From positions 3,712,764 through 3,776,763 of the forward strand of contig NC_092583.1 of the NCBI RefSeq assembly GCF_037975245.1: a stretch of 64,000 nt of DNA. The letters run 5' to 3'. Under the pieces are notes generated by a model. That model was not told where the DNA came from, searched no databases, and worked only from the letters and a program-made list of their open reading frames with translations. This stretch comes from Apostichopus japonicus (Eukaryota; Echinodermata; Holothuroidea; Aspidochirotida; Stichopodidae). Position 1 is the first letter of the stretch, and each line of letters starts with the position of its first letter. Below, in pieces: positions 36,606 through 57,120 of this stretch. A program made the translations under genes and the position numbers.

Positions 36606-36904
36606 TTATGGACACACTGTTGCTTGAACTATGGGGTTGTTTCGTCGGAACTCTCTGACAAGCTGTGCACATTCTTCATTTCCTTGTTCTGTCAGGGCAT
36701 GTTCCAGTAAGCTGATGTTTGTCGCAGATATCAATGAATTCTTAGTCAGCATCTCTAACAAGAAGGCTCCAGGTCTATGGTGCTTCTCAATATCCATAAC
36801 CACATTTTGAGAGAGTCGAAACATATTTGCCAGCTGAACACCTTCGCCTTCATGAAGATGATACGATAAGTCCTTCTTTAGCTGAGCAAACGAGTCGATA
36901 ATTG
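36606..36904 (-). CDS. ZU5/death-fold gene last exon: death fold 4
   Basis: 299 nt including TAA at 36,608-36,606. DSFAQLKKDLSYHLHEGEGV, LANMFRLSQNVVMDIEKHHR, GAFLLEMLTKNSLISATNIS and LEHALTEQGNEECAQLVREF give a six-helix DED/DD-like fold at the C terminus. Acceptor CTTTGCAG. Confidence 0.8.
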
Positions 36905-39900
36905 CTGCAAAGTCATAACATGAGATGATTATTACAATGACAACAATTAAATATTAAATGGGAATAATCCCAGTCATCATCTCTTATTACCAGTGGTGCA
37001 TGCATGCTAAGTCTGAGAAACAGCTTATTTCATATCAGAAATATCCTAGAGGTCAAAGGTCATATCGAGGGCAGCTATTTTGCCATTGTGTGTTCTTACA
37101 GTGCCACTATAGAAGGCGGAAATCCCCTATATTGAACACAGTTCCTTCTTTTATTTCTCACATTTGCATGGTGAGTTAAAAGATTGTTGTTACTGAATGC
37201 CAGAATGAGATCAAGTTAGACATGTTCTTAATCATTGCAGCAACAACATTGTTTGTTTTTTTAATGAAAGACACGCCAAAAACGGACTGAAACTATTCTT
37301 AGTTGTTTATTGGCGTTGTTCTTCATAACGCTCAGTCTGTAAAAAATACGTTTAACTTGATGAGGGTTAGATTTGTATCTCTTACATTTACGAATGCATC
37401 TATTCCTGCAAGCTACTTGCTGAATTGAGAGTCAGAAATACAGTTAGAATGATTGCTCAGGACGTTCAGTGGAACTGAATCTACAGACAAGTCATCAAAT
37501 ATAGGGATGGATTTCTAAGCTACGAATGAATGAATACACATGCACATACTACCAAAGTCAAAACCAATAGATTAATTACTCCATGAATAGAAGATATTTG
37601 CCTCTCTAAAGAAATTGAGTTCCAGCAACTCATAAAATGTGTTGCAAGTCCATAATTGTTTACACCTATAATGCTCGAAATACCGGGTATACTTGTAACT
37701 CCATCTTTAACCATAAGCATATAAAATAATAGAAGTTCTTCCAGAATAGGAACTTGAGTGCATCTGCCGACACCTAGTTTGACTTTTTCCTCTGTAAAAT
37801 TGTTAAAAGCAATCTGAAGATTTAAGGTTTGCTTCAAAGTTACATTGTATTACTTACATTGCGGTGGTATGTGCTGGAATGGAGATTCGATTTGGTCAGC
37901 GCGCCGGAAGTTTTCAATCTTTGTAGGGAAAACAGAAGAGAGAAAGATTAATGTTTCTTATAATAAGCTGTGCTTAAGTGGAAAAAACTTCTTCATATAT
38001 TTAGCCATCTCCTCTTATCATCAGAAGGCGTCACAGTAATACTTGCTTAACTTAGGAAGTTAACTCGCAACTTGAAGCAAGTTCACCATAGCTTTTCATG
38101 TCGGTATTCCATCAATTTTCCCAGTATTCCACGAAAAAAGATATGTTAACTTTAGTTTACACAAATGGCATCTTTTGAACACCACAAATGTAAATTAACG
38201 TTGCATTTCAGGCAGCATCATTTAAGATTAACTTACCTTCATTTCATTCTTAAATTGAAAGAGAAAAAAGTTCTTAAAATCCAGTGTCTTATTTCAATTC
38301 TGAGATTGGCATTATGTCTTATTCCTTTCCATCGTGAAGTGGAAAAGCTTAATCATATATTTAGCCTTCTCCTCTTATCATCTGTAAGCCTGACAGCAAT
38401 GATTGCTTAACATAAAAACGTAACTTGCAACTTTAAGCAAGTTCACCTGGTATATATTATTTTCACGGTATTCCACGATAAAGATATAATAACTTTAGTG
38501 CACATACAGACAGCATCTTTTAAGTACTACAAATGTAAAAATGTCGATAGTTTAACTTACCTTCAACTCCACGTGAAGTTGAAAGCGAATAGTTCCAAAA
38601 GTCCAGTTTCTTGATTCAATTCTCAGATTGACAGTATTTCTTAATCCTTTGTTATGAATCTGGAATGCGCATTTGAGTCTGTTTTGTAACCAAAGGTTAT
38701 CAGTGTCAACATTCTTTAAGAGAGAATAAGCAGAGGATTTTTCATCAAGGTATATCTAGAAAATCTGTATGTATATATATATATTTAAATATATATATTT
38801 AAATATTCATATAGCGCTTTACATAAAAGAATATCTCAAGCACTTTACATGGGACTATAGTAGAATCTTAAGAATTGAAAATATAAGATACATAAAGAGT
38901 ATTCAAAGGAATAAAGGAGTAAAAACAAAATCAGAGAATAAATAAATTTAAAACAAACTCAATCAATCAATACGTTAATGAAACTAATATAAACAAGGTT
39001 AAGACAATTAACAAAGATCATTCAATAACAGTAAATGATAACAACATAAGTTTTAAGTCGGCCATGGTTAAGTAAACAGAGAATCATGACTTACTACCAA
39101 TTTAGGATCAGAAGTACATTGTGGAGTGGAGCAAACAATATTGACAGGGAACGTTGACCCCATGGATTTGAGAACAAAAGACACAGGACGATGAACTGCC
39201 AATCCTTTGTTTTTGTAGACCTCTTCATGGATTATGCTCTGTTAATAGAACAACACTTGCTTAATATATCAGTTGATCGTGTATACACATTTTATTGCTC
39301 AATACTACACAGCCCATTTCCATATGACTTCAAATGACACTTAATATCTTAGACTTGATGATGTTTGCTAGAAAATGTTGTGTCTTCTCGTTTATAAACG
39401 ATCACTCAACATGTCTCACTTCTGACTGAAATCACATGGCAGTCACTTAATATTATTGTCTGTTTTTGAACTGAAATGAATTGTCAGTTATTGTCAATAT
39501 ACATCCAACGAATAACTGGTAGGTGTATTTGCTTCGCATCGCTGTAGGTTTTGCTGGCAGTCATCAATTACTAATTGTCTTATCGCTTAAGAACTGGAAT
39601 ATCTAGTTACCATTTTATTACTTGTTTAAGTGATTGTTATTGGGCTACAACAAGTTTGCGTCCATCATCCATGGCCATCGACAGCCTGCTCTATGAGTCA
39701 ATACTGAAATGATCTTCTAACACCTATTCTTTTTATGCAAGATTATGACTGTGATGAAAAACCGGAGCGTATTGATTTTCAAAAAGGGTTTCTGTAAAAA
39801 AGTCCTACTGTAACAAGGCGGGTATTAAGCCTTGACTGCATAGGAAGAAACGTTTGTCAAAAGAATGACACGTACATGAAGAGACAAATGGATTCTTTGA

Positions 39901-42900
39901 GATCCGTGACCATGCAGAGGCAAATAACTTGATAAAATACTGTGCTTACTTCATGTTCCAATTTTTCATCGTTGTGAAACCAGAGATGGAGAGTGAACTG
40001 ATCCCCCATATTAGAAATGTTTACAATTGGTAAAACACAGACACGCTTCTTCATTTTGGGTATGTATGGAACGTGAAGACCAATGAGACAGGGCTTCTGA
40101 GCTTCAACTTCAAGATGATTAGTAGTCATAGAGCAACTGAGGTGTTTCTTTTCTGGGCTCCATTTCACAGATTGATCTGAAACAAAATGGCGTCACAATG
40201 AAGTCACTTGAGCATAATAATTACTGAGGCGTTAGTTACATCAAACGTTGGAGGAATCAACGTCTGGTACAACATAATGCCAATAATTGAAATGGTATCC
40301 TGCTCCAAAATCGAGAAAAACGCTATTAAATTAATATGTTGAAATATATATTTGTACATTGAGAGTAATTTAACGCTGTTTGGAATAGAAAAATCATTCG
40401 TTTGCCCTACTTTACGCTAGCAAGATCATTCCATTCGGTCTCCTAGTTGTATTGACTATTCCTTTATGAATTTACAAAACAAAAAAACGGTAAATAAAAG
40501 TTGGAAGGTCAGCAAGGCCATGAATATCATTGCAATATTATAAATGAGATATTATAACAGGGCGCCACTGCCCTGTTAACTTAATATAACATGTTCCATC
40601 TTGCACATTGTGCATGTAAAGTAATTCTTTTTAGCTGCACATTGCTGATTACCTGTTACTTATTTTAAATCCCATTTGGTGCATGGACTTAACAATGTTA
40701 TGATAAGATTGACCTACCCTTACCATAAACTTTACCAGAAAATACTTTACCATACTTTACCATACTCTACCATAGTCACCCCCACTTACCATACTCTACT
40801 CTACTGTACCATACTTTACCATAGACTACTTTTACCATAGTTTCATTCTGGTAATGGTTTATATTGTCAAACATCCATATATATTATATCGTCTGTAAAT
40901 AATACCGAAATGGTTCAGTTCAAGTCTATGCATAAATCTACCCTGCTCTCTCTGGTTGTTTATCCTCTTGAGTCTCTGTAACTTGCTCTTAGTATTTCGT
41001 CAGTGATCCCTTTGTTAGTTTATCTTTCTATAAGTGACTTTACTTTGGGGATTCCCGTCTACAAGATGCTTCGTTAAGATTTGTTGTAAATCTCCTCAAT
41101 CTATATATTTACATTTATTACTACGAGCATCTGTATCTTCTGATTTGCCAATAGTGAAAACGACTACAAAATATTGAAATATAGTCTTGAAAATACAAAA
41201 ATAAAATGACAAAGTAAAGGAAAGGAATTAACCTGTTTGTAATACACCAGAGTACACATCAATACCAGTCTGGATACTCGAAGTAAACGCGCAATGTGGA
41301 ATAGACAACGAGACAGGTTTGTGTAAGGTTAGACCTTCTGGGCCAAATTTCACAACAGGGCTCATCCGTAGACTCTTCTTTAAGATAGGACCTTTAATCG
41401 CAGGGTCATTAGAAACCCATAGACTAATAATCCTTCCAGTGTGAAGTGCATTAGCTGGTACAACCAGATGAAGACCTGCGATATCCATCTCTCCTCCATG
41501 CTGATCAATGTATTGTTCCTTATAAAGAGTTGATCTTGGGAACAGAGGAAACCCCTCTATAGGAGACAGATAGAGAGTTATACATAAGGAATTGATGAGT
41601 AAACAATACATCTTGTATTAATATATTGTATATTTTAAGTAAGCTTGTGGAAAGTTTGTCTACTCCATTTTTACGGAAATTGAAATTGACAGACAAATCA
41701 AGGTTATTAAGGATAGATTAAATTCCTTGGGCGACCAAGATAGTTGAGATTGATATCAATATAATAACCCATTATGTCCGACCAAGACAGTATAATAAGA
41801 CGTAAAAATAACTCACACAAAATCAAATATCTTTACACATTACCTTCTTTTTCAAACATAAGCACTGACATTAATGAATTGGTAAATATAGTTGCCATTT
41901 ACAACTGTAGCCAACCACCTGATATTTACAATCTCATGCATTTATGAGCTTCAATATATACAAACAGTACTGTACCATGCGCTTCTTTAGCAAGCAGGAG
42001 TATCCGTCTGGCCAAATCTAGTTTGCCGAAAGACAATTTTAAGGCTCGTTGGATATCCAGTGTTGCGTATTCCTCTTCTTGCAAAATTTTAAAAGATCTC
42101 GTAGACTGAAATTCTCTTTTTGAGATCACGTCCTGTCTCCACAATTATATATGTAAAGGGAAAGACAAAACAAGATATTAATGTAAAATTGAGTAATAAT
42201 CGTATTAATGTTACTTTCAATGGAAATCCCATGCAATGGTCCTTCTCTTTTGGTCATCGTGGCATATTGAATATTAGTGGCGAAGAATCTTGCTTTCATT
42301 TGTTAATGGATATATTTGGAATATAGGAAGTAGAGCTGTGTGACGGTCAGATGAGCAATAGTTTATAATTTTTTCTCGAAAACTTAGAAAGTTTCCCATA
42401 ATTTAAGGATTTTTAACATGTTGACAGTTCTTTGCTTCAAACATGGGTACCGTTCTATTTTTTTTTGTAAAGCGTAAGCGTTGCATAATTATTTGATAAC
42501 GATAACATACGCGATGGCAATGACCACGATAATAAAACTTCATGAATAAACTTATATGCCTGTACGTTTTAAGAAATTACACACCGAATTCTCGTTATAT
42601 TGTTCTCCTTCCTTTGCATGCTTTCTCGTTGACATATCGATGTACTCTAGGGCCACTTTTGCAACCTTATTAAGGTGAATAGCTTTCAATCCTTCATACA
42701 GATCAATAATTTTGTCTGGCTTGATGAGCTCAGTTTCGTCTAATATTTTCATAAGCATCTTTCCAGGTTCTTCTGCTGTCTGGATTATGTGCTGATCCTC
42801 TGGTTTGAGTTTGAAGCGTCCACCTAGCTTTTCACAATGTTGCTTGTCCAGAAGCTGTGATAGTTCCGCTTTCAACTTTTCGTATGCGTGTAAGTCTAAA

Positions 42901-45900
42901 AGTGAAGGCATACCACCAACTTTTACATTCAAAGAAGGAACTTGATTAATTGAGAAATCAAAGCGTTGAGGATAGATCTTTTACATAATATATTTAGCGT
43001 GCAAGGGATCATGTATATTTGTCATAGTTTTAAAAGGGTAAAGTTCAATTTGGATTACTGCAGCGTAACATGAAAGCCAGATTACTAATACTCCCCAGCC
43101 CCAATCAGACACTCGCATGGATGCGTTTATGTGATAATGTGTTCATTTATTGATCCACATCATTTAAACGTCATTTAAACACCCACTGGGATATGTCGTT
43201 GTTTAGTATTATAATGTTTCACATCCACTTAGGCACTCTGCTGGGTGTGCGTCTATAATTGATGTGTATTTTTGTCCCACCTGCCACTTAGAGACTCACC
43301 TGAGTAATATTCTCGAAACAGCATTTTAAGACTTGTTGGCGAAAGTATAATATTCTTTACCTGATGAAATGAAGAAATAAAGACGACTTCCTTAATTGAC
43401 AACTTAAATAATATTGGAAGTATAATCATTCATACCATAAAATTAACCGAAAGCTAAATTTAATTCTTAACAGTTATATAGCAACTGCACGCAAAAAAAT
43501 GGAGTGTTGAATTTTAACACTTCCCAGGTGTAACCGTTCACCCTACACCTGAAGGGTTACTCTGACCCTGAGTAGGGTTACATAATTTATGTAGCGTGGA
43601 TTTTTTAACACCTGCAGAAGTGTACTTTCAGTTCGAGCATTCTGATTGGTCAAACCTCCCGTCAGCTGGATTCTTAGTGTAAGTTAAGTGTTTAAACGAT
43701 ACCACCGTACCGTGAACACCCATTTACCGTACCCAGCAATACTTGTACCAGTTTGTCGACATTTATCGTTACTAAATGTACTATAGTAACCACAGCCATA
43801 TATACGTTCAAGCCACAAAACGTTACGTACTCAGTGTGCGATAACGAGCTACAATGGCATGAAAATGACGTTATAGGAGACTGGGGCCTGGAAGAATTGA
43901 TTGAAAAATTCGAAGGTATGTTTTGATATTATGTAAGTGTACGTGACAAGAACGAGATATGCTTAGAGACCCACGACTAAGCTGGGTAGACGAATGCATT
44001 TGAATCGCTTGCGTTACGTAGACCTAACGTTAAAGTCATACTATAAGTTAATATAATAGGCTAGCTGCTGTTTGTCATAGTCAACTCATAATTGTCAACG
44101 AATCAGTGTAGCCTACATACAAGTAAACATTAAACGGAATTGCCTTCGGACGGACGGAGGACTTTGGTCTAGGCCTTTATTGTAATCTAGTGCATTCTAT
44201 TCCTTTTTGTGCGTTAACCGTAACTTCGTATACCCTGCGAGTCACTTTTTTAAGTAGTACTACTACTAGGCCTAGCCTAGTACTAGTAGGGTATACTTAG
44301 GCTATTTCAAGACAATGCATTTTAAATAGCATCGGGCATGGGCCTATAGTTACGCTGGTACTATGTTCAATAAGGGATAAACATATATTCATGTAATGCA
44401 ATATATAATTACCACTAATTGCCATTTTAGCTTGTAAGTTGTAGCAAGTAGGCCGAAGCTGATGTGGATTGGTGATACTTTTAGACCTAGGCCCAACTAT
44501 AATTTAGCTATCTTATGGAAGTGATCTAGCTGTTATAATTCATATCAATCTACACAATTGCATACAGTGGGAGTGAGCATTGTTTTAAGCATTGTTAACA
44601 TGATGCATTGGTTATAAAAGTTGCCTACCTTGTCTGATGAAAGTTTAATGCAAGTTCCTGTTTTGACAAGTAATCACTATAGGCCATCTGGCTTTCTAGA
44701 TTCAAATGTACTTGAAGAAGTTAGAATCACAACTGATTAAATTGTGTGCATTTTCTTTAGCAATGTTCATGTTTTGTGAGGGGTACATGTACAAAACTGC
44801 TTATGCTCCAAGAAGGTTTTAACACAACTTCATTATGATGGGAATTTTCTTTTCTTTTCTTTGTTGTTACTTAGGAAGCATCAACTTGGAATTCTATTTG
44901 CAAAAGATTTCAGAAAGACCTCAGCAATATGTGTTACTTCTTGGAGGAAGCAAAATACACCCCAAGCAGTCATTTGTGATCATCCAGAGACATGCCCTAC
45001 CCCAGAGGACATTTATGAAGCCATTGATGTTTGCTTCAAATTATTCTACGTGTTAAATCTGAATTATACCAAATTGCAAGTCTCGGTGCCTGGGAATTTT
45101 TCCAAAAAGTTGTCTACAAGTTGCCTGGTGGTGTGAAACGCAACCAGATTCAAGATTTTTGTGCTCACCGTGCCGACAAAAAAGACAAAGTTACTGCAGT
45201 TTAGCAGTTGTCATAGACAGAACTCCATGTTTCCTCATCTCACGGATCAGCATATATCTAAAGTTGTTGCTTATTTGGAATTGTCTTTGGGAAGAGTTTT
45301 TTCTTTGTGTTTAATTTGGAATACCAAAGGCACGAGCCAACAACAAAGACAAAGTAACTGCAGTGTAGTAGTCATCATAGACAGTACTCCACGTTTTCTC
45401 ATCCCACGGATCAGCATATATCTAAAGTTGTTGCTTATTTGAAATTGACTTTGGGAAGAGTTGTTTCTTTGTCTTTTATCTAGAAACCAAAAGGCATGTG
45501 CAAAAAAATAAATACCAAGTAACTGCACTGTAGCATTTGAAAATGTTGGCACTTTTAAGTTGACTTAATTCCACAAGACAATACTTTTATAGCCTAAATT
45601 GTACGTTTTACATTTAATGGGATATAATAAATGGACCTCTGGAATAGGAAGGTAGTAGGGTGTTTAATTGCTGAAAATCCCACATTCTGAATTGTTTGTG
45701 TTGTCATTGCTTTTTGCTCTCTCTTAAATGTAACTTTCTGCTGTGAGCGATTCAAACATGCATCCATATTGTTTACCTAATTACTAGGTAATACTTAACC
45801 TAAAACCTGTATAAAATATTTACTAAACGGGTGCGATGTAAACTTATCTGGCAAAATTTTACATAACAGTATTGTATTTGCGTTACATAATAAACATGTA

Positions 45901-48900
45901 AAACTTTACAAACCAGCAGTTAAATATACATCCAGAAGTATAAACGAGAGAGCACTATTGTGTGTTGAGAGTCCATTAAGTATCATCTTGACACAGATGA
46001 CAAATGAACACTATATGGTGGTAATTCTACTCACTGAAGCAGAACTTTGACACCCAGAAGGCCAAAAAATGTGCACTAGAGTGTTAATTATACTCCCTGA
46101 AGTGCAATTTTGACACCCAGAAGTGCTAACAAATGAACACTTTATGGTGTTAATTTTACTTCCTGAAGTGTCATGTTGACACCCAGAAGTTTTAACAAAT
46201 GAACACTTTATTGTGTTAATTTTACTCCCTGTAGTGTACCTTCAACACCAGGAAGTGTTATTTTGACACTTGTATGGGTGTTGTTAAGGCAACACTCGCA
46301 AAGTGTTATATTATGTTACACTTCTGAAGTGTTAATTTAACCCGGTGGGTGTTGTCCCTAATCCAAACAGGGTGGGCTGTTAAATTCAACACTTTACGAT
46401 TCAAATTTAACACTTCATTTTTTTGAGTGTAATGGAAATAAAAGATACCGTTCGTTGAAGAGCAACAATTGGGTTTATCTCATGTTCATTACATGCCTCA
46501 GATGACCAGTTATATCCCAGACGCTGGAACTCTGGTCACGTGACTTCATGTTCTGGATCAGGCTTACAAGTATTACACAAAACGTTTAGTATTCAAGAAT
46601 TTAGTACAAGACTTCAATTTTAGCGCAGCAAATTGTAGCAGCAATTCATGCAAATTTGGTAAAGATATACCAATTGTTCTGCTTAGTTTGTTATTAATAT
46701 GAATTTGCTGTAGCCCACTCTATTTTTTCATATCAAAAAGTCTAGTTATGGTCTGTATTCTACCGCAGTTCTTGTGATCAGTGTAATGATTTCATGATTA
46801 CATGATGATTTCCCTTACTTTAAACTTCATGTGTCTATATTACTCATGTGTCATTACTTTTGTCTCAATTTTCACGCCAGAGTCGCTATTATTCTTGGGA
46901 CGGTTGTCAATGTCAGAACATCAAAACAATGCGCTCTGATTACTATTTGTGTTAAGATGCGCTTTTCTCATGTAGATGTGCGTAAGTTAACACTAGTAGG
47001 CAATCCAATGCAGTAGCAGATCCCTAATCCATCATGTGATGTCCGCACTCAGGACGCACATCGTTACAACCAAGCAAGTTTGGAGTTTGCGAAACACCTC
47101 TTTGATCCTTTGAAGTTCATTGATCCCAATGATATTTACGTTAACTAATATGCTACAAACATTGCATGCCCTTACTTCTTACATTGATTTGAAACTTTCC
47201 TTTTACCTACATTGGCCACATAACCATTGAAGTTTCATCAATGCTGTAAACTTTCAGAGTATGATATCTCGTGCTCACCGTTTGGGGGTTTCGAGCATTT
47301 CCCCTTTTTGGTGCGTGTGCAATTGCCAAAACGCTGTTTTCAACTTTGACACCTCACACATTTGTATGTATGTATTTAGATCCTCCTGCAAGCAGGAACT
47401 CGCGAAGAAGCCTCACTGGCACATCAAAGCCGCAAGCTGACCGAAGTCAGTCTCCTAGATCGAACCGGGGAGCTAATGATTGGAAGGCACCGGAGTTAAC
47501 CACTGAGCTAACACTCCACTCCATTTGACCCTTCATCGCCATAGCTGAATTCTGCACTTCATCTGACACCCAGGAACATAGCCATCAAGTTTGAAGTCCA
47601 TGCCGGATGAGGGTTTGGGAAGAGTTCGAGACATTCTTTTGCCAAACTTTGAACAAAGTTGACTTCAATTGACCACGTTACCCATGGAACTAGAGGTTAA
47701 ATATCGCCATGAATACGTTCTATTATCGATTTCCTGCATGGGTGTTTGGATTTCTGTAACTTTGTTAGGAGCAAAATGGTCTTTCTGTTATTTGACCTCC
47801 CATTGTATGATGTTATAGGTAGCGGAGATGCGGATCCATTTCCCCTCACATACGCGCCAAGTTTGAAGACCATAGGACTTACGCTTTTTGATGACTTCGC
47901 GGCCTTTTCGTACAAATTTAACCAAGTTTGACAATTGACCTCTATGGACCATTGACCCAGGGTTATTTCAGTGGCGGAGCTAGGGGTATTGGTCAGGGGG
48001 GCGAGAATGTTCTGTGGGGGCGCTTTCGACACTATCTAAGCGAAGCGCCACCACAGGCTGGCGCGGAGCGTACAGACATTTTTTGAGTAAAGATAATCCC
48101 TAGATTGCTGAAAATGACCCTTTCCGGGCCTTGCTAATTTGCAGACAAACGAAGAATAAACAGGTGTCATCGCCAACACAATGTGACAAATATTAATAGG
48201 TAGATGACAGCGCAATAAAAAAGGCAATAATCGCGAATAAGTAAAAGTGGTTAAAAGCTGAAAAGTGCGCCAGCAGTCCGTTTGAGTCCGTCAGGGGAGC
48301 CTTCCGCCCCCTGACTGTATGGACGCCCCGCCACTGTGTTATTCCTTATTTGACGTTTGAAATCTTTCTTACCTTGGATTGCATAACTTCATACGTCACT
48401 GAGACATTTTCACTAATACCCAGGGACACATCAACAGAGTTCGAAGTGAATCAGATTTACGGTTTAGGAAGAGTTAACGACACATCTATTAAGCGTTCAA
48501 GCACCCACACACTGGACCTCACGCAAACGGACAAGATACGTCATCTAACCAAAACTGGAATCCCATCACTCATTCCTATGTCACAACGATGGACTTCATA
48601 GTGCCAATAAATTTGCAACACAATACATGTCCATTACTTCTATGGTATTCGATAAAGCCCAAATGCTGCCACAGCCAACTGACTCAGATATGTGACCACC
48701 ATATATCAGATGTTTTTAGTGATGAGTTAAATGATCTTAAAAAACATCGTATAGAAGAAGTGTTGCTAAAGGGCTTTATATTCCGTACAAACTAGATGAA
48801 ATAAGCATATAATAATTCAGAGGCATCTTGTTTTAATCTTCCTTATTTCATAGAACAAAAGCTTATGCAGAAAGAGCTTCCTTAATTCCAACATCTTACC

Positions 48901-51900
48901 ACATGGGCTGAGTAGGCTAAGATCCGAGCAATTTAACTCACCTTTGTTTGGAGAAAAACAGTTAGCTCGTTCTCCTCAGTTTGTGACACTTTGAGCCTCA
49001 CATCAACCATATCATTGTCTACATCTGGGTTCCTTTTGAGTCTGAACTGATGAGAGACCCTACTGGCGGCACAGAGGTGATCGATTTCAACATGCTAATA
49101 GACGAAACAGGTATTCGGAAACAATTAATGTAACAAAAATAAAAATATTGCATTTAATTCTGATTTGAATAAAGCTTAGACTAAGTAGGAAAATGAAAAG
49201 TTATGGTCTGAACTTAAGAATTATACGACAGGCAACTTTGCCTGCCATGGACATCTGTAAAGAGATGATGGTTGACTTCACTGCTTGTAACTTTGTATGT
49301 TTAACTTTACTATTAATAAGAAAAATGACACGTCCTTTCTCCTTTCGGAATATAACTTTTGAATGCCAGTAAATACCTAACCTTTGATGACTCTTCTTTG
49401 GTCAGATGGTAACTATCGTTCTTTGAAAACACCATGAGCTCAATATGGGAAGTCTCATCTCTGTCGCCACCCAATGTCCGAGTAATTTGAATTGTTTTGT
49501 AGTTCCCGAGACTCAGTTTGGACGAGTAGTCTTCTAATAACATCTACAGTATAAACAAATACCACAACGTTTACTGAAAGTAAAAAAAATAAAGAAATAA
49601 AATCCCCAAGTCTCTTCATAGGTCGTGAGCTTGAAAAATCAAGGTTTTGCTGCCAACTAAAAGTTTTATGGAATTTTTACGGTATAATTCTCAGTGTTTA
49701 TTTTAACACATTAACATGTTACAAAACCGAGATCTTCAAATTAAGGAAATATATTTTTAAACATGCAATTTATTTGAAATTAAATGTATGTGTTTCTTTA
49801 TCATATTTCAATACCATAATTTCCACATTGACTTCTGACGTTATGGCATGATTTTAGACTGGATTTCAAGATATGATAACCTTGTAGTCTTCTTCACTGT
49901 CCTTAGAGAAACAAACAGTTATCAAGAGATCTTCTTTGGCATCAAGAATCCCATCAATGAAGAAAACAACACGGAATATGTGTTTCTGTTCTGTTTCTTG
50001 GCTGACTAAAGTAACAAAGATGTAGCTCAGGATGTTAATGTCAAAACTGATCTTCTCTCGGTCTAGTTTGCAATCAGTGGTTTCCTCTTCATTCCAAGTT
50101 ATTTCACCTATGCATGAGAATATGATGCAAAATGTCAGTCAATCGTGGAAAAGTAATTGCATAAACATTTTGGCTAGCATATATGACATGCACGAAACTA
50201 TCTGATAAGATAACGGTACCGAGATACGCATATTCCATGTTGTACTAATTCTTCCAAGTTACTTCATACATTTATCATCTTGTATATATATGATGTTCCT
50301 AAAACCTGATTGATGGTCACCAACTTTACCTGTTTGTAAATTTTCTTCATGTTTACGACCAGCGAAGACAGTAACACGTTGGCAGTCTGTTTCAGAGATG
50401 AGAGCTGAATGAGGAACAGTCAATCGTGCCGGCTTGTTGAAAGTAAGTCCTTCTGGCTCCAGTTGAATCACGGGTGTCATCCTGCTCCCGCAAGCAATAA
50501 CAGGGAGTGACACATCATTGTGATTTTTTACTTTGACAGAAATTACATGATCATTGGATAAAGCATCCTTTGGAATAGTTAGACATATCCCCATGACGCT
50601 CATGGTACCGCCTTCAAAGTTTATCTTGTGCTCCATGTATGAATGACTGCGTCTCATGTGATGTATTTGTGAATCTTTTTTTGTTCTTGGTAACTCTTCA
50701 TCATGTTCAGGATGTTCCTCTGTTTCTTCTCTTTCTGTAGATTCTTCATATAAAGTGGCTTCGTCGACACTGGCAAACGTTTTATCTACAATTAGAACAG
50801 AGAGATAATTAAATTTACCAAAAGACAAAAAACTAACACATTTTTTTCAGGAGTTGAAACCACAACGTGAGACATCTGCGTCACAAAAATGACCCAATGG
50901 ACGTTTTTGCATTCTACAAGAAGATAGCTCGAAGGCGATGTAAGACTGATCAATACTGAGCAGAGACAACATTCATCATCCACCTTTGGCCGTAGCAATT
51001 CAAGAACAACAAACAACCAACATCCAATGGGAACTCATTAAGGTACTAATGGGTAAGGCTAGTTTATATTGTATACGGATTTTAAATACTGTTGATCTAG
51101 AATGAACCATATTATACATCGAACAAAATCACTTACTTGGCACAAGGTTTTTACATTTTAGCACCGTTGTCAAATAACTTTTGACTTCCAACATATTAAG
51201 AACATTTTAAGAAATATTTACAAACAACTGACCATGAGTGGAAAGAATTATTTCGAATAGGCTTAACAAAACGCTTGAATCGTATGACAAATGCTGACAG
51301 TAATGATATATGATATAGACGAAACCTGTATCACTTAACCACCCATAAAAAGGGTATGTACATATCTCCTATATACGTGATTATATAAACAGAATTGACG
51401 GATTTTGTTATTAATTTCCCTGGTTAACAAACTTATAATAAAGAACGGACGATCACATTGGTCATTAAGAGGAAGCTGCACAACACATATAGCACTCACT
51501 AAAATTGCAATTAATATAAGGAAAGGTCACATGCAGAAACACATACACACTCCATCCATATACTCCACTACCATCACTGATTTCCCTTTTTTTTTTAATA
51601 TCTTACTTACCGGGCCAATCGAGTAATTTCGGTGTTTGGTTTTCTTCAAACTGGAATTGCCCAATCTTAGCTTGGTATGGAACTAACAGATTTTCGTTTG
51701 TTCGGTTCAGCTGAATACACAACAAACCCTTTTGTAGGTTAGTGACATCGTACATGTTGATGATGTTTTGTGTCTTTATGACGTTAAGCAGAGTTATTCC
51801 TGGTGTCTCTATCAAAGAAACTCGACGCAGCTGATTGGTTTGTGCCGGTGATAAACGAAATAAAGCCGCTAATCTTAGAGTGTTATCTAGAGTAAGATCT

Positions 51901-53919
51901 TCAGCAATACCGACCATTAGTCTGCCGAACTCAGCTGAAATAAATAAAACGAACAGCAAATCAAGACGCAAAATAACACGCGCATGACAATACAAGTTGG
52001 ATAATTAAAGATGATATTTGAATACCAATGTTCCAACTTTTGCATTTGTCTCTGAGAAAGAATTTACCATATTTTTAATTTCAGCCCAAAGTGAAAATTT
52101 GTAATTTGTTTCATAAATATCATTCCTATTAAAGCAGATTCTTGTGTTGTACCGTTCTCAAAAGTCCTAGCGTAATAATATTTACCCATAATTTGATACA
52201 CCTACGTACGCTTGAGTCTTAGATCGTTAGATTTAAATATTTGTTAGTCGCTCCACCAAACTTAACAGTTATGTTTTAGAGATAAGGCAATAGCAGCTCG
52301 CACAAGCTTGTTCCTCGGTGAATGGTTCTTTCAACTTACAATTCTTCAATGTTTGTATTTTGATTTTAACGTTGCCTATGATAAAATATATCTTATAAGT
52401 CTGGTTATGATCATGTGATTACTTTATAGCACACGAATATATATCATGTTCACACACATACTTTTGAAGCTCCAAGGAGATTATTGTGTGTTTAGCCTAT
52501 ACCGTATTGTTGGACCTCCTAACTTGTGGAACATCTCCATACTATATCAGGGGATATACATTTTGCGAAGAGATAAATTCCTTTGCTGACTCAACGTCCA
52601 TTTTTTCCAACATACAAGACACACGATAATGTACAATCATACTAACCAGAACTGACAGTGTGGACACAAATATGGCATGACTTCCTCTGTGATTTACATG
52701 ACTATTACTTACAGGTACAAAACTGCGATTACGACTAATTTAAGTGAGTCAAAAGTTAAATGACTAATTTTGTTCCAGAGCCACTGATGAAAATATCAGA
52801 ATGATGAACACATGACCATATATCAGCAAATCATGTGTATCAACTAGCTCTTATCACTTTGACCTTAAACGCACTTAACATTGCACATTGTATTGTATAT
52901 TCTGTAGTTAACCTTGTAAAACTGATTCCTGTGATACGTCTGGAGTTTCCATTTCTTGAGATAATGTCTTTTTCTTTGTAACGGAAGCTGGTGTAACCTG
53001 TAAATGAATGAATGCAAACATGTTGTCTCCAACCACCAGAAGAAATTCACAAACAGACTTTCCATGATTGCTCGACATGACAGTAATATAAAGACCAGCA
53101 TTGAAGTAGCAAATTGGTAAGGGGGGAAGTTTGAAAACATTTTAATATATCTTAATGGCGTTGACCTTACTTGGGTTTTGTCCTCCCTAAATTATGTTGC
53201 CAAATTCTGTCATTTTGTGTTATTAGAGCAGCATATCTTCAAGTATCACTATCTTACTGCAAAATGGTTTTAAGAGTGAAATGATTTTTATCTTTGTTTA
53301 CGACAATGACCTTTGAACTCGACCAACAACAATTTATATTTTCTGTCCTCAATGATGTACAAAGTCCTATGACGCTTTCAGTTATTTGATACTTTCATAT
53401 TTTCAATTTGTTTAACATCTAATGATACAACTCATTTACATGTTTTCTGAAGTGAACATATTATGATATCTTACTTGGTTTTGTTGAGCTTTCACTGCCA
53501 ATGCCTCAGTTAATTGCTCCTTCTCATCCTCCACCTTCTTTAGTCTGTCCTCCAATGCCTTCAGTATAGTAAGAAGTGACTGATTTTCCTCTTCTGTGTT
53601 CGTTAATCTGTTTTGAACATCTTCCCTTCCACTTTCGTTGCCTCTCTGTCTCTCTTGCTCTGTTGTTTCTAGTGCATATTCGAGTTTCTGTCCCTCAGCG
53701 TCTGGAGTTGTAAAGTTACCTACGATACAAACAATTATATGATATGTGGGTGTATGGATGTATGTAAGATACTTTGAACAGACTCTGTTAAATGAAATAG
53801 AAATGAACGACAAAGGTAAACGAATATAATTGTTGTGAATTGGAAAATTCAGAACAGTGAAAACACTTCCAGCCTCCAAGAGGATTCGGACCCGGATCTC
53901 CCGCTTTATAGGCGGACAC

Positions 53920-53959
<40 letters not shown>

Positions 53960-53991
53960 GTTTTCTTCTCTATATATATTTCAATATATTA

Positions 53992-54049
<58 letters not shown>

Positions 54050-57000
54050 TTATTTATAGGGTGTCTGTGACACAAAGTTCCGGGATTCGATTCCTACCTT
54101 TGTTCTATCTTTGAAATGACCGAACAACATAATGCTAACAAATAAGTACTCTGCTACTACAATTTGTACAAGCGTGTAATAAAAATGTACCGTGACATTC
54201 ATAAAACTCCAATCCCGCAACTAATTTTCTCAGTCCTGTTTGAGAGCATGCCGTCACCAAAGGGCGGATGTCTTGAGAAGAAAAAACCCCATTCTCTCTA
54301 AGATGTCCGAGGAGGGATGATACGGGGGCAAGACTTTCTAGAATGGACTTTGATTTATTTGTGGAACAGTTGAAATGGTCGAGTAGCTTCTGGCAGTCAT
54401 CTTTCTCAGCCAATGTTTCCAACGTTACCAATAAATTCTCATAACTGAAAAGTTCCCTCTGTAATAGAAACATACAAAAATATCATCCACGGATGAAAAA
54501 AAAATGTGTAGAGGATATGCCAAAATAGATAAAGCACAATGGTGTGGATAATATATGGTCAGTTTCAGTGCTCGTCGTAAGTCAAGTCCTTTAAATTACT
54601 TATTAGGTCTTTAACAGCAATTTGTATCACTGTTTTTTGAATATTTTAGTGACAGCGTACTGGCTCGGTCTTCTCAAATCATTTCTTCGTAAGTACGATA
54701 ACCCGAATCATGATAAATTAACATATAACCGTGTCTATGATTTCGAAAGCCAAAACATCCGCCACTTAACTTATCGAAGCCCTCAGCTTCGATTGTAGGA
54801 AATGTAGATTTCCACGTGGTCTTGCGCATTTTCAATTATTTTTCGCGTATGAATATAACTGTAAAGTTCGTATGCGAATAGCTCATACTTGAGCGTGTGT
54901 TAATACGCTTATTATGATATATTCGCACACTTGAAAAGATACAACGCAGACTTTTACTTGACTATTTAATTAAAGTGGTAATTTTTTGATCAGCCTTCAT
55001 TCTCCCTAGTTCCCTGTGCTTCAATACGCTACGATGGTTACCTTTGTGTAGCTATATACTACAGTTTCGTTCGAAGAATGAAACTCTGTTACGCAGTACG
55101 GGTCAACCATGCTATATTGTTTCCTTTCTGTAGAACTCACTGTACTAATGTGCACTATAAACAAACAGTCCCCTAAACAATACAAATGCCACATATAATC
55201 ACTCTCACGCCGGAAAAACAAAGGATTCGCACGCATAAGTAATCAATAATGTCATATAAGGAATCAAAATACTGCAGCAAAATGTATTATTTTTCTATGC
55301 TTAAAGTTTAATCAAGGAAACACTGACAAAAATGATTCGACAATGTCAAATTTGATACAATCTATACTCTTTACAGGGCACATATACTTGAACATCCTTT
55401 CCAATTGCTATCCTCCCTGTAAGGTTATGTTGCTTGAGCTTACAAGATACTTTTGTCACTTGTTCACGGAATTTCCTTTTCATTTGAAGGTTTTGTATGT
55501 TATAACAGTGATAATGAAATAAATGAATGCCAACTCTTTGCATATAAACGTGATATATTTAATAATTGTAAATATATGTATTACTTACTGTGTGGAATCC
55601 ATAAATTTTATCAGTTTTCTGGGCGACAGCAAACATCCTGTTTGCTTTATTATTGATCCTCATTTTCCAGCAATTGTAAGGAAGGTTAAACGAGGCCAAG
55701 ATGTGTCCCTCAGAAAGAGAATGAACATCACCGCGCATTGATTCGGTATGTAGTCTTCCCCATAATATAAATATGAATCCATTTTCTTCACTGACGGCCA
55801 GAGTCCAAGCCACCGCATTCTCATGAAGTGAAGTTTTGAATTCCCTTTCTAGTTCTCCCTCGTCATTATACATTAAAGCCCTCCCATACAAGGTAGCGAT
55901 GAGCACCTTGTCATTTCTCACGGCTATATCTATAGGACAGTCTTCACGATCCTCTTGTAATCCTCTTAAGGTGATTGTTTTAGTTTGGTCTAAATGGGCA
56001 TTAAACACAATCACGCAATCGGAGCAACGGATACCAACAAATAGCAGCTTATGTCCGGTTGTCATACACCAGGGGCGACCGCTGAAATTCTGTCGTTTGA
56101 CTAAACTGCCATCACTACTATCGTATAATTCAATTTGATCCTCAGAGCACGTTGCGAACAGACGATCATCCAAAAAACAAACGCACCGAGTTGATGAGTT
56201 CGCAAAGGTCTTAGAATAATATGGTTGTGAATTGTTTAATAACAATTTCTCTTGAGAATTGGTATCATTAGGTATTTTATATAGGTCGACGAAGGTGCCA
56301 TCGTTGCGTTCTCCAGCCACACCCAAAAGACGATCATCCAGCACAGCCAATGACCAGATATTGCGACGATTAGCAGCAGATCTTGAATGTTGTATGTGGA
56401 AAATGGAAAGTTATATCAGACGAGAGAACCGCAATTATCGGTTACAATTACTAATAAGTTTGACATATCATTCCATTTATATGAAGGTATTATATTGTTA
56501 TATAATATTGGAAGAAAACTAAATTAAATTAGTCCGTGATGACGCCAATACATACGCCTTGCGATCATTGGCAGAGCGATTTTTGTACTGTTGCAACTTT
56601 GTAATGTTCGGCATAACCTACTTTGATTTTTAAACATTACAACATCGGTTTCTGTCGCTCTGCAACATAATTTAATGATAAAATATTTCAAGTTCTTCAC
56701 AATCCTCATATGTTCGTAAGTCACGTCTCTTCTGCTCTGTCCTAGATAAGGTGTAGGACAGAGTCCCAAAGAAAAGCTTAAAATTGGACTTTTCACAACC
56801 AATGATGTCCGTAACTAAGGTTTGATAGCACCTTTTGACACAGACAACCTGAAACTAACTAACTCCTAAATATTGTATGATTACTTAAAGGTACCGATTC
56901 ATTTCCAACCGCATATGATGACGTGTTCATCGAATTAGGATAGTAGCTGAATTAAAAGGAATTATACCAAAAACCCTACCCAGTCCCAACACCCAACCTG

Positions 57001-57120
57001 GTGTAAAAGCTATCTAGATTAGTCTAGATGTTATATACTACTATACTTACATTGAGATGTTGTCGCCCATTTTGGTATGTCTTCTGATCAGGTTTAAAGA
57101 GAATGTTCCTGAGACACCAC
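36606..57120 (-). CDS. Propeller / tandem ZU5-UPA / multi-death-fold protein
   Basis: Minus-strand exons: 57,120-57,051 (ATG at 57,070), 56,381-55,589, 54,458-54,191, 53,719-53,475, 52,997-52,913, 51,934-51,611, 50,785-50,330, 50,107-49,881, 49,543-49,382, 49,094-48,942, 42,977-42,585, 42,132-41,976, 41,556-41,233, 40,176-39,950, 39,238-39,098, 38,713-38,561, 37,918-37,858, 36,904-36,606. From the ATG this is 4,488 nt, 1,495 residues plus TAA, in frame throughout. Order: beta-propeller (8-271), death fold 1 (272-360), coiled coil (361-442), linker, death fold 2 (471-555), ZU5-A (630-763), UPA-A (764-911), death fold 3 (935-1030), helical spacer, ZU5-B (1110-1232), UPA-B (1233-1376), death fold 4 (1399-1485). 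In PIDD1 and UNC5 this core links a sensor to death-domain partners, so an intracellular signalling scaffold is likely. The join 48,942 to 42,977 is the weakest link; a two-gene alternative would start the second at ATG 42,911. More 5' exons are possible. Confidence 0.78.
37858..37918 (-). CDS. ZU5/death-fold gene exon: linker
   Basis: 61 nt, IENFRRADQIESPFQHIPPQ. Acceptor CTACAAAG, donor CGCAAT|GTAAGT. In module A the corresponding linker is fused to the death-fold exon. Confidence 0.72.
38561..38713 (-). CDS. ZU5/death-fold gene exon: UPA-B part 2
   Basis: 153 nt, NVDTDNLWLQNRLKCAFQIH through FQLHVELK. Acceptor CTTAAAG, donor TTGAAG|GTAAGT. Confidence 0.77.
39098..39238 (-). CDS. ZU5/death-fold gene exon: UPA-B part 1
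   Basis: 141 nt, SIIHEEVYKNKGLAVHRPVS through CTSDPKL, phase 0 to 0. Acceptor ATTAACAG, donor AAATTG|GTAGTA. Confidence 0.75.
39950..40176 (-). CDS. ZU5/death-fold gene exon: ZU5-B end
   Basis: 227 nt, DQSVKWSPEKKHLSCSMTTN through LHLWFHNDEKLEHE. Same length and phases as 49,881-50,107, which supports module duplication. Confidence 0.8.
40724..40848. repeat. TTTACCATAC-type minisatellite
   Basis: About twelve irregular copies of a 10-base word (TTTACCATAC, with TCTACCATAC variants), in an intron of the ZU5/death-fold gene. Confidence 0.85.
41233..41556 (-). CDS. ZU5/death-fold gene exon: ZU5-B
   Basis: 324 nt. YIDQHGGEMDIAGLHLVVPA and RMSPVVKFGPEGLTLHKPVS repeat the ZU5 signature of exon 50,330-50,785. 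Acceptor CCTATAG, donor AAACAG|GTTAAT at the same domain position as in ZU5-A. Confidence 0.86.
41976..42132 (-). CDS. ZU5/death-fold gene exon: helical spacer
   Basis: 157 nt, DVISKREFQSTRSFKILQEE then LKLSFGKLDLARRILLLAKE. Helical, of unknown role, between death fold 3 and ZU5-B. Acceptor GGAGACAG, donor GCATG|GTACAG. Confidence 0.75.
42585..42977 (-). CDS. ZU5/death-fold gene exon: death fold 3
   Basis: 393 nt if the acceptor ATGTAAAAG is used; if this is instead the first exon of a separate gene, the ATG is at 42,911. It reads IYPQRFDFSINQVPSL, HAYEKLKAELSQLLDKQHCE, KPEDQHIIQTAEEPGKMLMK and KIIDLYEGLKAIHLNKVAKV, a death-fold pattern like that of death fold 4. The acceptor lacks a good pyrimidine tract. 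Confidence 0.72.
43488..46429. mobile_element. TIR element, 2.94 kb, with internal gene remains
   Basis: Left end CACGCAAAAAAATGGAGTGT, right end (reversed) CACTCAAAAAAATGAAGTGT, continuing TTAAATTTG against TTGAATTTT. Both ends carry many AAGTGTTAA/TTAACACTT words. At 46,000-46,260 a unit of about 65 bp (ACAAATGAACACTTTATGGT and GACACCCAGAAGT) is repeated roughly four times, as expected of transposase-binding subterminal repeats. No target duplication is clear and no DDE motif was seen, so the superfamily is open. Confidence 0.75.
43833..45190 (+). pseudogene. Broken gene inside the TIR element (SAM-like?)
   Basis: A first exon-like stretch ending GDWGLEELIEKFEG at donor GAAG|GTATGT (near 43,916) and a second after acceptor ACTTAG (44,874) that reads LEFYLQKISERPQQYVLLLG and HPKQSFVIIQRHALPQ. 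It then needs two frame changes to read EDIYEAIDVCFKLFYVLNLN and WEFFQKVVYKLPGGVKRNQI. I recall this pattern from an uncharacterised family in fish and invertebrates with a SAM-like N terminus; I cannot name it. The frameshifts mean it is not functional as it stands. Confidence 0.5.
47050..47960. repeat. Degenerate dispersed repeat
   Basis: Motifs such as CCATCAAGTTTGAAGTCCAT, GCCAAGTTTGAAGACCATAG and AACCAAGTTTGACAATTGAC recur; decayed internal repeats like those at 22,896-23,480. Interrupted by the SINE at 47,390-47,525. Confidence 0.5.
47390..47525 (-). mobile_element. tRNA-derived SINE, family 2
   Basis: Minus strand: A-box region TTAGCTCAGTGGTTAACTCC (about 47,511-47,492) and B box GGTTCGATC (47,466-47,458), then TAGGAGACTGACTTCGGTCA and GCGAGTTCCTGCTTGCAGG. 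The head resembles a real tRNA, but no acceptor stem closes. Different from the SINEs at 4.6 and 16.4 kb. Confidence 0.77.
47969..48336. mobile_element. hAT-like MITE, 368 bp (same family as 9,774)
   Basis: CAGTGGCGGAGCTAGGGGTA start, GCCCCGCCACTG end; flanks GGTTATTT and TGTTATTC agree at 6 of 8. About 80-85% alike by eye to 9,774-10,154 and in the same orientation. Confidence 0.83.
48942..49094 (-). CDS. ZU5/death-fold gene exon: UPA-A part 2
   Basis: 153 nt, HVEIDHLCAASRVSHQFRLK through LTVFLQTK, donor ACAAAG|GTGAGT. The paralogous exon 38,561-38,713 has the same length and phase. Confidence 0.77.
49382..49543 (-). CDS. ZU5/death-fold gene exon: UPA-A part 1
   Basis: 162 nt, phase 0 to 0, MLLEDYSSKLSLGNYKTIQI through LTKEESSK. 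Of two possible donors, AAAG|GTTAGG keeps the frame with the next exon. Confidence 0.75.
49881..50107 (-). CDS. ZU5/death-fold gene exon: ZU5-A end
   Basis: A 227-nt exon. ITWNEEETTDCKLDREKISF parallels the ankyrin ZU5 pattern with Trp, TT, hydrophobic and FTTNVS-like strand, then HIFRVVFFIDGILDAKEDL opens the UPA-like part. The paralogous exon 39,950-40,176 is also 227 nt. Confidence 0.82.
50330..50785 (-). CDS. ZU5/death-fold gene exon: ZU5-A
   Basis: An acidic leader (EESTEREETEEHPEHDEELP) is followed by ZU5 strands: INFEGGTMSVMGICLTIPKD, SRMTPVIQLEPEGLTFNKPA and RLTVPHSALISE. The GG...L.IP..A and P.V.L.P.G..F..P motifs are ZU5 hallmarks seen in UNC5, ankyrin and PIDD1. Donor AAACAG|GTAAAG. 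Confidence 0.87.
51611..51934 (-). CDS. ZU5/death-fold gene exon: death fold 2
   Basis: Residues 471-578. AEFGRLMVGIAEDLTLDN, LRLAALFRLSPAQTNQLRRV, ITLLNVIKTQNIINMYDV and LQKGLLCIQLNRTNENLL give the helix pattern of a death effector-like domain. Acceptor ATTTCAG, donor CCCG|GTAAGT. Confidence 0.72.
52913..52997 (-). CDS. ZU5/death-fold gene exon: linker
   Basis: An 85-nt exon, VTPASVTKKKTLSQEMETPD to VSQESVLQ, low-complexity linker. Acceptor ATTTACAG, donor ACAAG|GTTAAC. Its phases (0 to 1) join its neighbours exactly. Confidence 0.72.
52998..53474. other. Intron, nothing recognised
   Basis: Intron of the ZU5/death-fold gene without visible repeats. Confidence 0.5.
53475..53719 (-). CDS. 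ZU5/death-fold gene exon: coiled coil
   Basis: Residues 361-442. Heptads run through NRLTNTEEENQSLLTILKAL and EDRLKKVEDEKEQLTEALAV, with leucines at a/d positions; dimerisation is likely. Acceptor ATCGTAG, donor AACCAA|GTAAGA. Confidence 0.8.
53832..54115. mobile_element. Two facing SINE ends around (TA)n
   Basis: Minus-strand copy at 53,925-53,832 (GGGTGTCCGCCTATAAAGCG, GGGTCCGAATCC, GAGGCTGGAAGTG, TTTTCACTGTTCTGAATTTT) and a plus-strand partial copy at 54,058-54,113 (GGGTGTCTGTGACACAAAGT, GGATTCGATTCC). Between them are two (TA)n tracts. Both belong to the family at 4,622 and 4,972. Lies in an intron. Confidence 0.72.
54191..54458 (-). CDS. ZU5/death-fold gene exon: death fold 1 (DED-like)
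   Basis: Residues 272-360. Six amphipathic helices can be read, ending in LLGHLRENGVFSSQDIRPLV and GLRKLVAGLEF. These resemble helices 4-6 of death effector domains, where a short acidic turn precedes helix 5. Acceptor TATTACAG, donor TCACG|GTACAT. Exact death-fold subclass is not certain. Confidence 0.72.
55589..56381 (-). CDS. ZU5/death-fold gene exon: beta-propeller
   Basis: One 793-nt exon encodes residues 7-271. Repeated strand patterns (WSLAVLDDRLLGVAG, CVCFLDDRLFATCSEDQIEL, PIDIAVRNDKVLIATLYGRA) are typical of WD40/NHL-like propeller blades at about 40-residue spacing. Donor CACACA|GTAAGT, phase 0. A ligand- or protein-binding sensor role is inferred. Confidence 0.8.
57051..57120 (-). 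CDS. ZU5/death-fold gene, 5'-most exon found
   Basis: Acceptor-like CTTGCAG ends at 57,121 and the donor is CTCAAT|GTAAGT. ATG at 57,070-57,068 (context ACCAAAATGG, A at -3, G at +4) starts MGDNIS. The frame is open upstream to the acceptor (GVSGTFSLNLIRRHTK), so this may be an internal exon whose upstream partner I could not find. Confidence 0.65.

Follow-up and report, generated by a model that had tools for sequence, protein, structure and literature searches.

A 64,000-nucleotide stretch of the Apostichopus japonicus genome (NC_092583.1, positions 3,712,764 to 3,776,763; hereafter the window) carries on its minus strand a gene of 19 exons (57070-36606) encoding 1,489 amino acids, with in-frame joins and GT-AG borders. 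Its product has ten folded domains in the order propeller, DED-like 1, DED-like 2, ZU5-a, UPA-a, DED-like 3, UBA-like, ZU5-b, UPA-b and DED-like 4, with a coil between DED-like 1 and 2 (the four DED-like domains are abbreviated DED1 to DED4). From sequence comparison we propose, with a probability of roughly 0.73, that this gene belongs to a family of cytosolic, germline-diversified recognition receptors that drive death effector domain (DED) signalling, and that it is not a netrin receptor. The computed evidence consists of the domain order, an expansion in two species, hypervariability of one propeller face with a ratio of non-synonymous to synonymous change (dN/dS) above 1, a dN/dS well below 1 in ZU5-b, and a NACHT-bearing sister family. 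The original prediction, of a separate kind of scaffold in which a propeller sensor is joined to repeated DED-like domains, is supported: its domain order recurs in 26 of 77 sequences, and a sensor role gains from the hypervariable propeller face and from a sister family built from the same kind of propeller and DED parts. The multivalent assembly and immune role that it suggested may apply as well.

Protein searches returned at least 76 different relatives (in lists of 44, 60 and 15, the last two of which scored only those candidates sharing most words), all of them from A. japonicus or Holothuria leucospilota. All ten folded domains were found in the same order in 26 of the 77 sequences scanned (the window protein, 22 from A. 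japonicus and three from H. leucospilota), so that the predicted order from propeller to last death fold holds in full-length relatives. The other 51, whose models are truncated, fragmentary or variant, are without one or more domains. A tree of 54 rows separated the 12 from H. leucospilota from the 41 of A. japonicus and the window protein by a branch with 100/100 support. Since the species separate on a fully supported branch, the two expansions are independent or have been homogenised within each species. Two relatives have unusual architectures. P0076 (HOLleu_22258, H. leucospilota) contains a propeller, a DED-like domain, a WW domain and a second DED-like domain, a reshuffling of the same parts, and in P0036 (BSL78_24855) a tnp2-type transposase is fused to domains of the window family, which is probably an annotation artefact.

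The expansion is also visible in the genome itself, where the propeller exon has 135 matches. Close matches (42-100% identity) number 52 and lie on contigs C15, C16, C19 and C23, two of these matches containing a stop; a further five are on C11 and 58 on C12 (24-48% identity), and the rest are elsewhere, short or weak. The DED2 exon has 65 matches, and ZU5 alone has 150 scored matches out of 204 candidates. Outside C12, 49 of the 57 propeller exons that were placed are followed within 35 kb by a DED2 exon, and at least 44 loci carry propeller, DED2 and then ZU5, in order, before the next propeller. This count used 57 of the 135 propeller, 55 of the 65 DED2 and 65 of the 150 ZU5 places, those judged to be of this type, and 44 is therefore a lower bound. 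Together with the annotated proteins, these ordered loci argue against an arrangement in which the propeller exons are never joined to the ZU5 exons.

The AlphaFold2 model of exon 2 has a predicted local distance difference test score (pLDDT) of 82.0, a predicted template modelling score of 0.82 and 22 strands, arranged in radial four-stranded blades of the WD40/NHL beta-propeller type. By our reading of the model, the blades probably number about six. A Foldseek search of the PDB gave 1,171 matches at E<=0.001, with WD40 propellers first and NHL appearing at rank 20.

This domain is among the most variable across paralogues. Among 20 complete A. japonicus proteins, mean identity was 77.5% for the propeller, 78.0% for DED1 (the lowest value after it), 79.7% for DED3 and 92.2% for DED2, the most conserved domain (72.3% to the window protein). 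Columns with an entropy above 2 bits made up 24 of 269 in the propeller but only 11 of the 976 that belong to the nine remaining domains; therefore the propeller variation is concentrated while that of DED1 is not. Within the blades, the variable columns recur at the entry to strand A and again at the B-C turn, and these two places together form the D-A/B-C face. Of the 24 most variable columns in 36 A. japonicus propellers, this face accounts for 20 and the opposite face for none. The same count gave 20 and one in eight H. leucospilota propellers (18 and four when P0072 is added), and 17 and one in 20 propellers from C12. Nine H. leucospilota propellers were compared, eight of them (without P0072) for the list of variable sites; P0066, P0076 and the partial P0071 were not used.

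Codon comparisons point to positive selection on the same face. Of 30 propeller loci of the window family, L009 (the window gene), L026 (with a stop) and L033 (partial) were excluded, and across the remaining 27 (351 pairs) dN/dS was 1.49 for the face, 0.58 for the opposite face and 0.73 for the rest. At 19 sites picked solely on H. leucospilota data, the window family had a dN/dS of 2.10, against 0.78 at other sites (27 loci). When whole-exon dS was used, the site-bootstrap interval for 18 H. leucospilota-derived sites was 2.13-5.34, and their dN was reached by none of 10,000 random site sets. By comparison, a control on ZU5-b, using 20 places picked from the genomic ZU5 matches, gave a dN/dS of 0.44. 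The predicted sensor role of the propeller thus gains support from one face that is hypervariable in two species and whose dN/dS exceeds 1 in two families of A. japonicus, the second of which lies on C12.

In that second, tandemly arrayed family the propeller is linked to a NACHT domain, as read at two of the 58 propeller places on C12. At the first of these, L042:2901-3719 and L043:1227-9894 (G000:C12:33.488-33.505 Mb) together carry exons for propeller, DED-like, DED-like, NACHT and ZU5 domains on one strand and in that order. Pfam identified NACHT (6.7e-19) and ZU5 (6.7e-11) here and found nothing in the propeller and DED-like exons; the DED-like exons match profiles of the window family, to 2e-20, and the propeller shares 36% identity with that of the window (1.0e-23). 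The same order was found at the second place, L039-L041, where NACHT was detected by phmmer. Moreover, the annotated protein P0044 has a propeller, two DED-like domains, NACHT, ZU5 and Death, and Pfam also finds NACHT in P0041. Among C12 propellers (20 of the 58 matches, mostly the best-scoring), dN/dS was 3.89 for the face, 0.85 for the opposite face and 7.18 for the H. leucospilota-derived sites. No NACHT was found by Pfam in the window pieces or in five long relatives (P0064, P0065, P0066, P0013 and P0017).

UNC5 receptors have an ectodomain of Ig and TSP1 domains and a transmembrane helix, and ankyrins join ankyrin repeats to ZU5-ZU5-UPA-DD (DD, death domain). The cytoplasmic part of UNC5B (PDB 3g5b) has ZU5, UPA and a death fold in the order also seen in the window gene, and several relatives carry the automatic name Netrin receptor UNC5. 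On these grounds the family could be read as netrin receptors without an ectodomain that are still neural. However, the window family differs from UNC5 in its N-terminal propeller, coil and UBA-like domain, in having two modules, and in carrying DED-like domains rather than a DD. Pfam found no Ig, TSP1 or LRR (leucine-rich repeats) in the window pieces or in the five long relatives, the latter giving at E<=0.01 only ZU5 and, in P0013, a weak DED. With the NACHT-bearing sister family and diversifying selection on one propeller face also opposed to it, the netrin-receptor interpretation appears very unlikely. It corresponds to that of the 2017 A. japonicus genome paper (PMC5638244), in which 234 genes are counted as netrin receptors and nervous compensation is proposed. 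The matching names and species indicate that this expansion probably includes the window family, and many of the 234 genes would be expected to belong to it and to the NACHT family. An ankyrin-like part in the membrane skeleton, as a structural adaptor, would likewise account for paired ZU5 domains followed by UPA and a death fold. Yet Pfam found no ankyrin repeats in the window pieces or the five relatives, the order here is ZU5-UPA-DED twice, and tandem-array expansion with positive selection would be unexpected in a skeletal protein; we consider such a role highly improbable.

The closest mechanistic parallel to a receptor family with a selected propeller face is fungal. Each repeat of the Podospora NWD receptors HET-D/HET-E has four positions under positive selection, situated on top of the propeller in its D-A loop and B-C turn (PMC1805685), and by pairwise counting positive selection in the window family falls in the same places. 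Unlike HET-D/HET-E, the window family has no NACHT, no WD40 family above its Pfam cut-off and no near-identical blades. Given that HET-D/HET-E form an allorecognition system according to the same source, the expanded family might sense self, in allorecognition or compatibility, instead of pathogens. The NACHT sister family and the DED parts fit both options and the data do not separate them; we think recognition of self quite unlikely. We lean slightly towards a broader form of the recognition-receptor reading, in which sea cucumbers have a germline repertoire of about 100 propeller-headed intracellular receptors in two related families, NACHT propeller NLRs and NACHT-less scaffolds with four DEDs and two ZU5-UPA modules. 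Both would diversify the same face under positive selection, independently of fungal HET, and would perhaps act as a network of sensors and helpers; part of the published netrin-receptor expansion would then be this immune repertoire. The figure of about 100 refers to the 115 propeller matches on C11, C12, C15, C16, C19 and C23, with partial ones counted.

The general kind of system is already known. Kaur et al. 2021, in the text available (PMC8195603), describe DED/TRADD-N expansions in marine invertebrates, some with variable propellers, interpret them as immunity and mention UPA-Zu5 fusions. Death folds and variable propellers are thus common to both, but the order propeller-DED-ZU5-UPA is not given in that text, and Apostichopus has no occurrences in its main text. 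A preprint that deals with gene families of holothurians (PMC13228809) contains none of the words ZU5, UNC5, death and propeller, and PMC13133943, on an A. japonicus NLR with Ig, transmembrane and NACHT parts, contains neither ZU5 nor WD40. In the openly licensed literature we found neither Apostichopus japonicus together with ZU5 nor a prior description of this domain order or selection pattern. If the proposal holds, a beta-propeller serves an animal lineage as an intracellular hypervariable recognition surface coupled to death-effector signalling, and fungal HET-D/E gain a convergent animal partner in which the first residues to test are identified. The netrin-receptor expansion reported in a farmed animal would then be a probable immune repertoire.

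The output side of the protein is more divergent. DED1 matches Pfam DED at E 0.007 with 17.0 bits (gathering threshold 35.9) and the cFLIP DED by profile at E 0.012, whereas DED2-4 of the window gene have no Pfam DED match. DED3 of P0013 reaches 17.7 bits, again under the cut-off. Profile comparison with hhalign links DED1 with DED3 (99.5%), DED3 with DED4 (96.3%) and DED2 with DED3 (93.2%), but DED1 with DED2 at just 7.9%. In relative P0026, DED3 has a predicted six-helix fold like the DEDs of PEA-15, cFLIP and FADD, and DED4 is modelled as helical throughout (pLDDT 67-89 by blocks). The death folds that had been predicted are therefore upheld by a weak Pfam and profile match for DED1 and by the fold of DED3 in P0026, but not by Pfam for DED2-4. 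Unlike the DEDs of FADD, caspase-8, cFLIP and PEA-15, the window sequences lie under the Pfam DED cut-off and occur as four copies alternating with ZU5-UPA. The predicted coiled coil is present as weak Pfam coiled-coil matches; it is short here, at 111 amino acids, and its length is highly variable in relatives, at 545, 311 and 361 amino acids in P0064, P0065 and P0066 and up to 968 in P0018. In P0001 the coil is visibly made of near-identical short repeats. What had been taken for a spacer (42132-41976) is instead probably a UBA-like domain, matching the CBL UBA by profile (E 5.4e-4), although Pfam UBA had no match in the eight family members scanned.

Both predicted ZU5 domains are significant in Pfam (1.3e-13 and 2.4e-10). 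The UPA parts lie under their Pfam cut-offs, with a weak UPA_SH3BP4 match in UPA-a (E 0.056). After each ZU5, the exons measure 227/162/153/61 bases in module 1 and 227/144/153/61 in module 2, with equal phases, and the DED-like exon that comes next begins at an identical phase in both modules. These matching lengths and phases indicate that the ZU5-UPA-DED unit was most likely duplicated within the gene. A sensor part followed by ZU5-UPA and a death-fold output is also the layout of PIDD1 and of the FIIND proteins NLRP1/CARD8, and two ZU5 domains with UPA and death folds could make the window gene a PIDD1-like autoproteolytic death switch. In such proteins the autoproteolysis motif is HF/S after ZU5, and Cys can act as the nucleophile (PMC3210808). 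The corresponding position in the window gene reads ILS after ZU5-a and KPC after ZU5-b, with no F, and PIDD-type autocleavage of its product is therefore unlikely. Across the family, all 62 ZU5-a rows have L or M, never F, directly ahead of S/T (CLT in 11 H. leucospilota rows and CLS in one). Of the 36 A. japonicus rows for ZU5-b, 33 including that of the window gene read PC, the remainder being SC, PG and one cut off, whereas the H. leucospilota ZU5-b/UPA-b border reads TFC in 7 of 7 rows (P0057, P0064-P0069). Moreover, the last ZU5 of P0032, P0033 and P0044 (A. japonicus) has HFSW, NFSW and RFSW at the apparent PIDD cleavage position. These three proteins end in a Pfam Death domain, gene-model fusions are possible, and autocleavage may be kept in them. 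The comparison with PIDD1 and UNC5 made in the original prediction thus holds for the ZU5-UPA-death-fold part; it fails for the remainder, as the window pieces have no LRR and no Pfam Death, and a propeller in place of the LRR, L (ZU5-a) or P (ZU5-b) in place of F, and four DED-like domains set the gene apart. A PIDD1-like switch is accordingly a most doubtful account of it. If the recognition-receptor reading is right, the ZU5-UPA-DED tandem offers a natural test of ZU5-UPA control over death folds, with the cleavage site present or absent.

A mechanism for the proposed receptor can be outlined. In UNC5b, ZU5-UPA packs on the death fold. The window protein would be cytosolic: its best 19-residue hydropathy was 1.55 (1.21-1.86 in the 26 complete sequences), and simple hydropathy, the only measure applied, shows no clear membrane helix. 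At rest each of its ZU5-UPA modules may pack on the next death fold, while the coil would keep copies together or oligomerise them. Binding of non-self or modified-self molecules would fall to the variable face, with its D-A loops and B-C turns, and would release the four DED-like domains of each chain. Once freed, these might nucleate a DED assembly or cap it and draw in FADD/caspase-8-like partners, and the UBA-like domain could link the complex to ubiquitin.

Several points weigh against a recognition receptor of this kind. The listed matches include no relative outside Holothuroidea, in searches that require shared 5-residue words, and the window gene is itself a long branch (0.54) in the tree and may have another role. 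By mean identity, DED1 varies nearly as much as the propeller. The face classes were drawn after viewing the A. japonicus columns, and just two tests, those on H. leucospilota and C12, postdate them. Furthermore, the dN/dS values are pairwise counts over non-independent pairs that take no account of a tree or gene conversion, and loop alignment may inflate them. On C12, sites outside the H. leucospilota list have a dN/dS of 1.62, so the excess there extends beyond the face. All four DED-like domains fall short of the Pfam cut-off, and the ZU5-UPA part is poorly modelled (mean pLDDT 41.8 in P0026), so that the proposed clamp rests on homology. Lastly, TFC at the H. leucospilota ZU5-b is a possible F/C autocleavage site with a Cys nucleophile.

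The gene model (Table 1) was obtained by a dynamic programme over splice and codon signals and then corrected against relatives. Chance was ruled out by an earlier, 1,430-residue version of it, which was matched by 44 A. japonicus proteins, two of them (P0013 and P0017) along 100% of the query. As tblastn queries, P0013 and P0001 match the window exons in order. The A. japonicus fragment P0055 (BSL78_28185) is 99.8% identical to the window protein across 435 amino acids and tracks the gene only from DED2 to UPA-a; its continuation at 47569-47450 was judged spurious, as P0001 and P0013 match nothing there. Exon candidates from the first gene-finding pass at 48035-47883, 47385-47279 and 43567-43549 were dropped for want of a match to P0001 or P0013. 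The exons were found in frame where the original prediction had placed them, but they number 19 rather than 18 and encode 1,489 rather than about 1,495 residues, and the outer limit of 57120 has given way, on grounds of phase, to a start at 57070. The least certain parts are the 20-base first coding exon and the acceptor at 56381, which is weak with a score of -4.5. Relatives compared by tblastn also have a short leader at the N-terminus.

Table 1. Predicted exons of the window gene, in order of translation.
Feature	Position	Strand	Content and support
Exon 1	57051..57070	-	Predicted start, MGDNIS plus 2 bases; ATG and donor AAT/gtaagt (3.6), phase suits exon 2
Exon 2	55589..56381	-	Beta-propeller
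Exon 3	54191..54458	-	DED-like domain 1; Pfam, cFLIP profile, hhalign to DED3
Exon 4	53475..53719	-	Coiled coil; weak coiled-coil Pfam matches
Exon 5	52913..52997	-	Linker; tblastn match with P0001, E 0.003
Exon 6	51611..51934	-	DED-like domain 2
Exon 7	50330..50785	-	Acidic linker and ZU5-a; Pfam ZU5 2.4e-10
Exon 8	49881..50107	-	UPA-a part 1, 227 bp; tblastn to relatives; ILS at PIDD-type HF/S position
Exon 9	49382..49543	-	UPA-a part 2, 162 bp; tblastn and splice phase
Exon 10	48942..49094	-	UPA-a part 3, 153 bp; tblastn, weak UPA_SH3BP4 match
Exon 11	43300..43360	-	Linker, 61 bp; acceptor 6.2, donor 9.0; length and phase equal exon 18
Exon 12	42585..42895	-	DED-like domain 3
Exon 13	41976..42132	-	UBA-like domain; tblastn 67-69% identity; weak splice scores (-0.7, -1.3)
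Exon 14	41233..41556	-	ZU5-b; Pfam ZU5 1.3e-13
Exon 15	39950..40176	-	UPA-b part 1, 227 bp; tblastn and splice phase
Exon 16	39095..39238	-	UPA-b part 2, 144 bp; tblastn and splice phase
Exon 17	38561..38713	-	UPA-b part 3, 153 bp; tblastn and splice phase
Exon 18	37858..37918	-	Linker, 61 bp; length and phase equal exon 11
Exon 19	36606..36904	-	DED-like domain 4 and stop

Elsewhere in the window, also on the minus strand, a transposase remnant lies upstream of the gene at 58879-59689 (DDE_1, with HTH_Tnp_Tc5 just under its cut-off), and two overlapping RVT_1 frames at 19232-20436 form an apparent retroelement remnant.

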